Part shown: positions 3,692 to 19,126 of the stretch, one piece after another | Numbering within the stretch: the first letter of the stretch is position 1 | Layout of the letters: each line of letters starts with the position of its first letter | Origin: Akkermansia muciniphila | Lineage (GTDB): Bacteria > Verrucomicrobiota > Verrucomicrobiia > Verrucomicrobiales > Akkermansiaceae | Length of the DNA stretch: 42,890 nt | Assembly: GCA_945860285.1 (NCBI GenBank) | Contig: CAMAQB010000020.1 | Location: 1 to 42,890, forward strand | Direction of reading: 5' to 3' | Position numbers and translations under genes: made by a program | The notes under the pieces: generated by a model | What the model was told of the DNA's origin: nothing | Database searches by the model: none | What the model saw: the letters and a program-made list of their open reading frames with translations, nothing else

Positions 3692-4650
3692 AAAAAATCC
3701 TCGCCCTCCTGGCAACGTCGCGCATTGCCAACGTGCCAAGCGTTGTTTCTAATGTGTTTACCGGGATGATGTTGGGAGTTTTGCTGCATGAAAACACGCC
3801 GCAGAATTTTTCCATAACTCTGCCGACCATTCTCGTCGCCTGTTGCTTGTATGTGGCCGGGAATTTTCTCAATGACTGGCACGATGTCGAATGGGACCGG
3901 ATGCACCGCCCGGAGCGCGCGATTCCGTCAGCGCTCTTTCCGCGCTGGTCGTATCTGTTGGTGTCATTGGTGTTGTTCAGCGCCGCAGGAGCCATCGCAC
4001 TGTCGTTGAGTAAAACCGTGTTTCTGGTGGCATTGGGCATTATCGTCCTGGTGGTCGCCTATACCTTGTTGCACAAGAAAACCACGGCATCGATCTGGCT
4101 GATGGGTGCTTGTCGCGCGGGTCTCTATTTGCTGGGATGGGCAGCCATGGATGAGAGGTTTCGGAATTTGGATCTCCATAACTACGGCTGGGCGTGGTGG
4201 TCACATTTGCTATTATTCGCGGAAATTCTATTTTTTCCGATGACCGGTCTTTGTTGTTACATCGCGGGAATTTCTCTGTTGGCTCGCTTTGAATCCCGAC
4301 CCGATGCCCCAGCGAATGTGAAAATGATGGCCACGATCTTGTTGTTGTCGCCCTGCCTCACGCACAGCTGCTTTTGGGTATCTTCTGCCGTTACGCATGG
4401 TGAAATTCCCTGGTTTCTCTTCGCGACGCTGCCGTTTTTCCTGTGGACGATGGTGGCCATTCGCAAAACAATGCCCCTGCCCCGCAAGGTTTCCCACTTG
4501 CTGGCGGGCATCGCTTTGGTGGACTCCGTTTTTTTGTTTGGCTATATTGCATTAGCCGATTCTTTGTTGTTGAATCCCGCTGTCTATCTGATCCCCATCC
4601 TTGCCTTGGTTGCCGCACTGCTGTTGCAAAAAATCGCACCTGCCACCTGA
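3688..4650 (+). CDS. UbiA-family prenyltransferase-like membrane protein (EboC-like)
   Basis: 320 aa with about eight hydrophobic segments. The diagnostic UbiA motif NDxxDxxxD is present: Asn62-Asp63, Asp66 and Asp70 followed by RPERAIPSA. A second, clear DxxxD motif is not seen; the corresponding loop reads YIAGISLLARFESRPD, which recalls EboC-type members more than UbiA or MenA. UbiA enzymes move polyprenyl groups onto aromatic acceptors inside the membrane; the acceptor here is unknown. The start ATG overlaps the CAP gene stop by 4 bp and galK follows after 15 bp. No other ebo genes are in the window, so the substrate cannot be inferred from context. Confidence 0.75.
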   Translation: MKKILALLATSRIANVPSVVSNVFTGMMLGVLLHENTPQNFSITLPTILVACCLYVAGNFLNDWHDVEWDRMHRPERAIPSALFPRWSYLLVSLVLFSAAGAIALSLSKTVFLVALGIIVLVVAYTLLHKKTTASIWLMGACRAGLYLLGWAAMDERFRNLDLHNYGWAWWSHLLLFAEILFFPMTGLCCYIAGISLLARFESRPDAPANVKMMATILLLSPCLTHSCFWVSSAVTHGEIPWFLFATLPFFLWTMVAIRKTMPLPRKVSHLLAGIALVDSVFLFGYIALADSLLLNPAVYLIPILALVAALLLQKIAPAT

Positions 4651-4665
4651 TTCCTTCTCTCCACC

Positions 4666-5858: not shown

Positions 5859-6308
5859 ATGAGTGAGTTGATCCGGATCGAACCCATTGCGCTGATGCCC
5901 ACCCAGGCGGGCTGCGCTCTTTTTCTGGGCAATGGCAAGAAGGTGATCTCGTTTTTCATCGATCCCTCGATCGGCGCTTCGATCAACGGCGTGCTGGCCG
6001 GACAGAAATCCGATCGACCGCTGACGCATGATTTGTTCCTGATGACACTCGAAAGTTTCGGCGCGCAATTGTTGCGCACGATCATCGTCAACATGGTTGA
6101 TGAAGTGTATTACGCCCGGGTCATTTTCCAGGTGGAAAACGAAATCCAGGAAAAAAAAATTGTCGAACTGGACGCCCGCCCCAGCGACTGCATCGCCCTG
6201 GCGGTGAGGGCGCGCTGCCCGATGTACATTGTTCCGGCACTGTGGCACAGCCTGCCCGATGTATCGGAAACACTCGACGACATGCGCAGCGAAGGAGAGA
6301 ATTCCTAA
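5859..6308 (+). CDS. bifunctional nuclease domain protein (DUF151/BFN)
   Basis: About 149 aa. The start ATG at 5859 is preceded by AGGTGA, one of the few good Shine-Dalgarno sequences in this window; a GTG at 5850 overlapping the galK stop is less likely. The body matches the BFN/DUF151 domain: LFLGNGKKVISFFIDPSIGASI, then HDLFLMTLESFGAQLLRTII, YYARVIF and the signature DARPSDCIALAVRARCPMYI. Members have been reported with DNase/RNase activity in a plant protein and in Thermotoga-type proteins; the bacterial role is not settled. Probably cotranscribed with galK. Confidence 0.88.
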   Translation: MSELIRIEPIALMPTQAGCALFLGNGKKVISFFIDPSIGASINGVLAGQKSDRPLTHDLFLMTLESFGAQLLRTIIVNMVDEVYYARVIFQVENEIQEKKIVELDARPSDCIALAVRARCPMYIVPALWHSLPDVSETLDDMRSEGENS

Positions 6309-17257: not shown

Positions 17258-18015
17258 AGTTCCCCATCCCATGGTTCCCTGCCTTTTTTCTGTGGCTCTT
17301 TGCGACCACAATCCTGGCGGGCGAATCCCGTGTTTTTGAACGGGCCCACCAGCTCGCCCTCTCGGGAGATCACATTCACGCGGTGCAGGAGTACCGCGGC
17401 CTGTTGTCGGAGCAAGGTCCCAGCTTTACCGTTCTCTACAATCTCGGCGGCAGTTATGCCGCGTTGGGTGATCACGGCAACGCGATGCTCTGTTATGAAC
17501 GCGCCCGTTTGCTTTCACCCCGAGATCCGGACTTGTTGGGAAATATCGAACTCACCCGCAAGGCGGCGAAAATCCCGGCAATCGATTCTACAAAACCTCC
17601 ATTCCAGCAGCTGCTGCATTTTTTCAGTCGCAATGAATTGTCGCTGGGAATCATGGTCCTTGCCGCCCTGATCGTGCTGATGTCCTCGTTTGCTTTCATG
17701 CCTCGCTCACCCCGCCGGGGCCTGCGACCGCTCTTGCTTGTTTGCTCGACTGTGGCTCTTTTGTTGATCGCGCTGTCGGCCTGTGCGATTTTCGTTAGAA
17801 AGTCCGAAGATGATCTTGCGGTGATCCTGGCAAAAGACTGCAGCCTGCGGCTATCGCCTTTTGCCAAGGCCGATGTGCTGACGACCTGCGAGGCGGGGAG
17901 GATGGTCCTCATCGAATCGGTGCGGGGTGACTTCAGCTACGTTCACCTCGTCGACACCGAACTGCGCGGGTGGGTCGGCAATGGCGAACTGGAACGAATC
18001 ATTCCCGCCGGGTAA
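17254..18015 (+). CDS. batE: BatE, TPR and SH3-like protein
   Basis: 253 aa from the ATG at 17254, which overlaps the batD stop. Signal peptide (1-22), TPR pair (about 25-95: YNLGGSYAALGDHGNAMLCYERARLLSP), two membrane helices (about 130-150 and 160-180) and a C-terminal SH3b-like domain (about 190-250: KDCSLRLSPFAKADV, GWVGNGELERI). This is the BatE layout. The last codons and stop (GCC GGG TAA) are part of a 12-bp sequence duplicated by the mobile element that follows, so the insertion left the protein intact but removed the native downstream DNA from its side. Confidence 0.85.
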   Translation: MKFPIPWFPAFFLWLFATTILAGESRVFERAHQLALSGDHIHAVQEYRGLLSEQGPSFTVLYNLGGSYAALGDHGNAMLCYERARLLSPRDPDLLGNIELTRKAAKIPAIDSTKPPFQQLLHFFSRNELSLGIMVLAALIVLMSSFAFMPRSPRRGLRPLLLVCSTVALLLIALSACAIFVRKSEDDLAVILAKDCSLRLSPFAKADVLTTCEAGRMVLIESVRGDFSYVHLVDTELRGWVGNGELERIIPAG

Positions 18016-18018
18016 TTC
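18007..18018 (+). repeat. left copy of 12-bp target duplication
   Basis: GCCGGGTAATTC, containing the batE stop codon. An identical copy lies at 18267-18278, immediately outside the other terminal inverted repeat. Confidence 0.9.
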
Positions 18019-18266
18019 ACGGCGATCAAGTTAGGGAAAGGATTGACAAGAAATGTCGCAACCAAAAGGCAGGGAATGCTCTCCGAGCGTTCCGGTGGGG
18101 GGCGGTCGCGGATCACCCTGACGCGATCTACTTTTACCCCACGCTCTCCTGTGCCGACAACGCTAATGAGTTAGGAAGGATGATTACCCGTCAACCATCC
18201 TGCCCCCACCGGATCGCTAGGGACAGCGATCCCTGCCTTTGAGCATCTCCCTAGCTTGATCGCCGT
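18019..18266. mobile_element. MITE-like structured element, 248 bp, with terminal inverted repeats
   Basis: Terminal inverted repeats: ACGGCGATCAAGTTAGGGA at 18019-18037 and its complement at 18248-18266, 18 of 19 identical. Perfect 12-bp direct repeats abut both ends. Inside are two hairpins in inverted orientation: GGAATGCT/AGCGTTCC (18073-18093) and GGATCGCT/AGCGATCC (18211-18232), each flanked by AAAGGCAGG- and GGTGGGGG-type sequence. Their stems differ at two positions and both changes keep pairing. More stems: TCGCG/CGCGA (18105-18126) and AGGATG/CATCCT (about 18177-18200). It carries no plausible gene, so it must be moved by an enzyme encoded elsewhere. TIRs plus a 10-12-bp duplication would suit an IS4/IS231-type DDE transposase; that link is inference. 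Confidence 0.88.
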
Positions 18267-18278
18267 GCCGGGTAATTC
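18267..18278 (+). repeat. right copy of 12-bp target duplication
   Basis: GCCGGGTAATTC, identical to 18007-18018. It now lies in the leader of the ABC ATPase gene. Confidence 0.9.
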
Positions 18279-18325
18279 CGTTTTTGTGGCTGGTCTTCCA
18301 CGCCCGCTCGATCTATGTTGCGGTT

Positions 18326-19126
18326 GTGGGGGAGACGTTTTTCGAGCTCGACAATGTTTCAGTCTGGCGAGGCGATCGCATGGTTCTGAACGATTTCACA
18401 CTGTCACTGCGCAGCGGTGAAAGTGTCGCCATCCTCGGGCCTAACGGATCGGGGAAAAGCACCTTGATGTACTTGCTTTCCGGGGAACTGCACGCGGCGT
18501 TTTCCCCCGACAGTCATTGCCGGTTGTTTGGCGAGGATACCTGGTCGCTCGAGGAACTGCGTCATCGCATCGGAGTCATCATGCCCGAGCAGGTGACCCG
18601 ATTCGAGAACGGCGAAGCCGTGGGGGATGTCGTGCTTTCCTCCCTGCGCTCCGCTTATGGTCGCACCCGTGAGATGCGATTTACCCGGGAGGAAAAACAG
18701 GCGGCGATTGACGCGATGGCATTGATGGGAATTGCCGAACATGCCGGCAGGGATTTTGGACGGCTGTCCTCCGGTGAACGACGGCGTGTCTTGATCGCCC
18801 GTGCCCTGGTTCACGCTCCGGAGGTGTTGGTGCTCGATGAGCCCTTCACCGCGCTTGATTTCGCCGCGTCGCTAAACCTGATGCGGAGTTTGCGTTCGCT
18901 GATCAACCATGGCTGCACCGTGGTGTTGGTCACCCATCATCCGGAGGAAATCCCGCCGGAAATCCCGCGTGTGGTATTGCTGAAAAGCGGCGCGCTTGTC
19001 GGCGACGGGGCCAAGCGACAGGTGATGTCCGACAAAAACCTTTCCGCGCTGTTCGGGCTGCCCCTGCGCCTGACCTGGCAAAAAGGCTGGTGCCAGGCCC
19101 GCGCGGCGGATGATGCGCTGGATTGA
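18326..19126 (+). CDS. ABC transporter ATP-binding protein, YlmA/ModF-like
   Basis: 266 aa from a GTG at 18326 (MGETFFELDNVSV); an in-frame TTG at 18284 would add residues unlike the family. A TATGTT hexamer ends 6 nt before the GTG. Walker A GPNGSGKST (38-46), signature LSSGERRR, Walker B VLVLDEPFTALD, H-loop VTHHPEEIP. No permease gene is near. The C-terminal ALFGLPLRL and the HHPEEIP wording recall stand-alone ATPases such as YlmA. Substrate unknown. The mobile element inserted only 60 bp upstream and may have changed or supplied its promoter. Confidence 0.8.
   Translation: MGETFFELDNVSVWRGDRMVLNDFTLSLRSGESVAILGPNGSGKSTLMYLLSGELHAAFSPDSHCRLFGEDTWSLEELRHRIGVIMPEQVTRFENGEAVGDVVLSSLRSAYGRTREMRFTREEKQAAIDAMALMGIAEHAGRDFGRLSSGERRRVLIARALVHAPEVLVLDEPFTALDFAASLNLMRSLRSLINHGCTVVLVTHHPEEIPPEIPRVVLLKSGALVGDGAKRQVMSDKNLSALFGLPLRLTWQKGWCQARAADDALD

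Follow-up and report, generated by a model that had tools for sequence, protein, structure and literature searches.

The window, positions 1 to 42,890 of Akkermansia muciniphila contig CAMAQB010000020.1, carries a gene named batE for its position and TPR repeats, with a Pfam-confirmed BatD gene immediately upstream and an ABC gene (18284-19123) following in the same direction. Between batE and the ABC gene, reading of the sequence from 17700 to 18700 revealed a perfect 12-bp direct repeat, GCCGGGTAATTC (18007-18018 and 18267-18278), and inverted arms of 20 nt that are 95% complementary. Alignment of 18 full-length copies, together with the flanks of 23 copies bounded by terminal inverted repeats (TIRs), fixed the ends as CAC...GTG (CACGGCGATCAAG...CTTGATCGCCGTG), giving an element of 250 bp between 10-bp target duplications (Table 1). 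The additional G and C of the 12-mer are end bases of the element that match the flanks by chance, one per side. An earlier note on this DNA had proposed 248 bp, a 12-bp duplication and 19-bp TIRs; the repeat and the TIRs are real, and the lengths are here corrected to 250, 10 and 20 bp.

Table 1. Coordinates of the element at batE (window positions) and of short elements with nearly the same TIRs in three same-genus genomes
Feature	Position	Strand	Remark
Left target-duplication copy, CCGGGTAATT	18008-18017	.	contains batE stop TAA (18013-18015)
Non-autonomous element: very probably an ISAs1-ended MITE that has captured a REPIN/BIME-like module	18018-18267	+	250 bp
Left terminal inverted repeat, CACGGCGATCAAGTTAGGGA	18018-18037	+	equals ends of the IS at C106:4639-5914 except for one C/T
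Left subterminal stretch	18038-18064	+	layout resembles that on the left side of other MITEs sharing these TIRs
REP 1, canonical core GGCAGGGA-stem-TCTCCGA-stem-TCCGGTGG	18065-18101	+	hairpin 18073-18093
Conserved centre of the module	18102-18202	+	also in free copies; module about 70% identical to that of G009
REP 2, inverted; loop TGTCCCTA typical of MITE-borne modules	18203-18240	-	hairpin 18211-18232
Right terminal inverted repeat, CACGGCGATCAAGCTAGGGA (minus-strand reading)	18248-18267	-	
Right target-duplication copy, CCGGGTAATT	18268-18277	.	
Short TIR elements, G003/G005/G007	L034 1192-1538; L036 1506-1662; L039 1501-1684; L040 1162-1538; L044 1503-1879		

The insertion point is 2 bases past the batE stop codon, where integration would have produced the 10-bp duplication. 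Since the stop lies in the left duplicate, the protein is unchanged and batE remains intact, in line with the earlier proposal that a stop codon within the duplicated target had spared the gene. The element itself carries no gene, the sole listed ORF of at least 80 aa across it (90 aa, 17970-18242) beginning within batE. An empty-site comparison gave no result, the batE-ABC neighbourhood not being conserved in the 8 same-genus relatives examined. When the empty site is rejoined in silico, the frame of the ABC gene continues upstream into the last part of batE. Alignments of this gene with its homologues in the genus begin only at about residue 10-19, so translation may in fact start downstream of the listed TTG.

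Inside the element are two hairpins, GGAATGCT-CTCCG-AGCGTTCC on the left and GGATCGCT-AGGGAC-AGCGATCC on the right, and both differences between their stems preserve pairing, as had been observed before. Against shuffled sequences the fold of the element reaches z scores of -8.0 and -9.2 on the two strands, mainly because the TIR ends pair together and the internal arms (18065-18101 and 18203-18240) do the same.

Copies of the element and an insertion sequence with the same ends

Dozens of copies of the batE element are present in the window's genome (G000; 3.70 Mb, 162 contigs), in which all copy counts are lower bounds, and the full-length ones are 83-94% identical. With up to 3 mismatches allowed, the TIR pattern matches G000 90 times versus 2 for a reversed-pattern control; given these matches and the dozens of copies in the same genome, the element is not a chance arrangement. 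Among 23 TIR-bounded copies, the 10-bp duplication is perfect in 12, has one mismatch in four and two mismatches in three, and is absent from the other four, so that 19 of the 23 match at 8 or more of the 10 bases. The view of the locus as a mobile insertion with target duplication is thus supported by the repeats, by the shared ends and by the duplications at other copies, many of which have ends at most one base from those first proposed; the outcome that the note had named as refuting it, a lack of further copies or copies with different ends, did not arise. Shortened copies were also seen (C2, C11, C30, C134). At C10:54802-55313, two copies stand head to tail with 10 bp (CAAATACTTT) between them, and a single 10-bp duplication (GACAGGTTGG) flanks the whole; from this arrangement, the two appear to have transposed together as a 512-bp unit, and a similar pair occupies C60:1-409. 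The plasmids searched returned no match to the element, and the viral contigs searched returned none to the TIR pattern.

The same 20-bp TIR bounds a 1276-bp insertion sequence (IS) in G000 (C106:4639-5914; TIRs at 4639-4658 and 5895-5914), which encodes an intact 388-aa transposase matching the ISAs1 model NF033564 (E 6.2e-108, 360.7 bits, cut-off 70). IS4/IS231-like ends had been our first idea, dropped after this match. The complete IS copy lies where a carbonic-anhydrase-like gene ends, and its flanks as examined show no clear target duplication of its own; ends of further copies were found near contig ends (C9, C68, C161), and a 332-bp sequence (C21:27453-27784) seems to have arisen by deletion from a relative of this IS. 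The right end of the MITE shares a 26-bp identity with the left end of the C106 IS; this was considered as proof of parentage and set aside, since another copy of the IS differs there.

Other short elements with these TIRs and different interiors occur in G000 and in three same-genus genomes, so that, judging by sequence, there is a wider population of MITEs with ISAs1-type ends in the genus. Those of G003, G005 and G007 (Table 1) measure 157-377 bp, have nearly the same TIRs and show no strict REP hairpin. The ISAs1 family makes target duplications of 8-10 bp. Like other MITEs with ISAs1-family ends, the batE element has TIRs in common with a resident ISAs1-family IS, is shorter than 300 bp, carries no gene, is intergenic and is flanked by a 10-bp duplication; unlike them, it is IS-like at its ends alone, its interior corresponding to a captured REP pair and not to a deleted IS. 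The earlier description of MITE ends around a BIME-like, gene-free interior holds for this element. Its MITE part is of an ordinary kind: a C106-type IS is likely to move it in trans, and the resident ISAs1-family DDE transposase is the most likely agent of the insertion at batE.

The REP module and its RAYT-like gene

Both inner arms of the element have the REP core given in Table 1, the right one with an altered loop. A strict pattern for this hairpin finds 75 matches in G000, 17 in G009 of the same genus, and six and two in G015 and G016, which belong to other genera of the same family, against none for the reversed control; it is absent from all other relatives searched. When 84,980 species genomes were scanned with a slightly extended pattern, matches came only from assemblies labelled Verrucomicrobiota or from members of that phylum (e.g., Haloferula, Akkermansiaceae), and REPs of the family are present in five named Verrucomicrobiota assemblies. 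The four stem pairs that the pattern leaves free covary, with 26 two-sided changes versus 10.0 +/- 2.2 in shuffles; none of 500 shuffles scored as high and slid pairings gave clearly lower values. Selection or function acting on the folded form, which had been argued from the two hairpins at batE, is consequently supported for the REP family across genomes. The original reasoning from a single copy is weak, because the two hairpins are two diverged REPs and because the stems of MITE copies vary mostly on one side only.

In most modules the REPs form inverted pairs whose starts are 138-139 bp apart, around a conserved centre of about 100 bp, and modules stand singly or in tandem with a period of about 182 bp. 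About 29 modules in G000 are without a TIR pair (hereafter, free modules). G009 carries the same module, there found only in free status. Tandem arrays of at least three modules, with a 182-184-bp period, are located at C40:28581-29205 and C58:4192-4825, the former beginning next to a right-type MITE end, and three REPs at C135:6008-6233 are in direct orientation exactly 99 bp apart instead of the usual inverted pairs. Two REP super-families have been described, defined by a GTAG or a CGTC tag (PMC3733652). Neither tetranucleotide is present at the REP end in this core, and for that reason we call the hairpins REP-like.

In G015 such hairpins lie on both sides of an ORF that carries the RAYT motif HxH. 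Searching G000 with its protein led to an intact 158-aa RAYT-like ORF (C160:381-857) lying between the same REPs (at 230 and 870), the best homologue in that genome at 59% identity. Both proteins match the REP_Tyr_transpos model at E values of about 1e-20 (74.1 bits, the curated NCBIfam cut-off being 80), neither has a Pfam match, and the C160 protein matches E. coli TnpA-REP (4ER8) at E 1.3e-7 with the HxH and tyrosine-NPV regions aligned. Sixteen Y1_Tnp (PF01797) matches in G000 were considered as the RAYT of these REPs and rejected: the REP core was found in none of the 10 loci read. As in described REPINs/BIMEs and their RAYTs (PMC3116915, PMC2817692), there is a dispersed unit of two inverted REPs, with tandem arrays, covarying stems and a REP-flanked RAYT-like gene. 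The present modules differ in their long (about 100 bp) conserved centre and the absence of the tag, and at batE the unit is enclosed by DDE-type ends, which a target duplication flanks.

In a maximum-likelihood tree of 65 modules, all 26 MITE-type modules (a few of them assigned by sequence type, without a full TIR pair) form a single clade (97/94) that nests within the free modules, those at C9 and C119 being closest to it. Because of this nesting in a single clade, the tree points to one capture of a free module. Free modules are the more diverse and keep the canonical right REP, which is missing from nearly all MITE modules; in most of these the right loop TCTCCGA is replaced by TGTCCCTA, a loop not seen in free modules of G000. 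One TIR, at C15:43697, goes with a canonical right REP and looks like an early form. Some copies hold two or three modules within a single TIR pair and keep the 10-bp duplication: C1:16025-16637 has three and C35:12278-12707 two. Their extra modules group with the free type, which fits exchange with free modules or arrays after one capture.

Origin of the element and its possible effects

Taken together, these data make it very probable that the batE element is a non-autonomous transposon with ISAs1-type ends and a once-captured REPIN/BIME-like module of the RAYT family, which has spread as a chimaera. Its interior would derive from a separate RAYT-type (HUH tyrosine transposase) repeat family of the same genome, with the RAYT as presumed mover; one free module would have been captured between ISAs1-type ends, the chimaera would then have spread, and some copies would later have gained or lost modules, probably through recombination that involved free modules or arrays. 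It is conceivable, if doubtful, that two activities still operate on this repeat, a DDE transposase moving the whole and the RAYT, or else recombination with modules made by it, adding or swapping the inner ones.

A hairpin module that arose inside the MITE, with free modules as MITE copies lacking their ends, would find a parallel in the truncated REP-resembling MITEs of Coxiella (PMC5896051) and in the shortened copies of G000 itself. We regard this origin as quite improbable, as it runs against the greater diversity of the free modules and the nesting of MITE modules among them, the canonical right REP retained outside the TIRs, the exclusively free status found in G009, the RAYT-like genes flanked by family REPs in two genera and the occurrence of these REPs in the five Verrucomicrobiota assemblies. 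The RAYT-type REP pair of the interior and the RAYT-like gene in the genome could alternatively suggest that a RAYT mobilised the entire element and that its outer repeats resemble IS ends by chance. This is extremely improbable, however, given that the ends agree over 20 bp with the resident ISAs1-family IS and that 10-bp duplications flank the copies; to our knowledge, HUH transposases of the RAYT type make no target duplications.

A third alternative concerns not origin but retention, namely that the element has been retained for its folded RNA, which would shield the bat mRNA at its 3' end or attenuate read-through into the ABC gene. The very stable fold on either strand and the position between co-directional genes are compatible with such a role, and some BIMEs in operons have been reported to act as attenuators (PMC3049150). 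We nevertheless consider it unlikely: no promoter or terminator consensus was found in the element, surroundings differ among the MITE copies examined, and one-sided stem changes predominate among them. The suggestion of a terminator or promoter thus found no backing in consensus sites, nor did that of a small RNA in Rfam, which has no match in the window; nothing was found that indicates a host function. The captured module with ISAs1-type ends is most likely a selfish element. Its strong fold could possibly stabilise or attenuate RNA locally, and any effect on bat/ABC expression would be small and incidental.

Among known systems, QMITE2 of Coxiella burnetii (150-190 bp, variable 7-11-nt direct repeats) contains a REP, which has the GTAG tag and is an IS1111 target, and occurs chiefly in intergenic regions and where genes have their 3' ends (PMC5896051). 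The batE element resembles it as a REP-containing MITE with direct repeats in such a position, and differs in holding a whole REP pair and in having a RAYT-like gene, free copies and a matching IS all in the genome. BOX of Streptococcus pneumoniae has similar end modules, a variable number of tandem inner modules, TIRs and target duplications (PMC3049150). This second likeness is one of described layout. We know of no indication that the internal modules of BOX are a separate RAYT repeat family. A MITE with a single REP (QMITE2, PMC5896051) and modular MITEs (BOX) are, then, already known; in the part of the literature covered, we found no report of a MITE with a whole RAYT-family REPIN in a genome that also has the RAYT-like gene, free REPINs and the matching IS.

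To spread, the REPINs of a family are believed to rely on a single RAYT. G000, where a RAYT-like gene and free REPINs coexist with an ISAs1-family IS and with a MITE that fuses the two, would be a natural example of a repeat that switches vehicles, in which the capture event and the gain and loss of modules inside the ends become testable by sequence comparison. It would also illustrate how hairpin arrays can come to lie in intergenic positions, cleanly bordered by a target duplication. ISAs1-type ends would give a captured REPIN a second route of spread and, should both activities indeed persist, captured REPINs would reach sites and copy numbers beyond those attainable through the RAYT alone.
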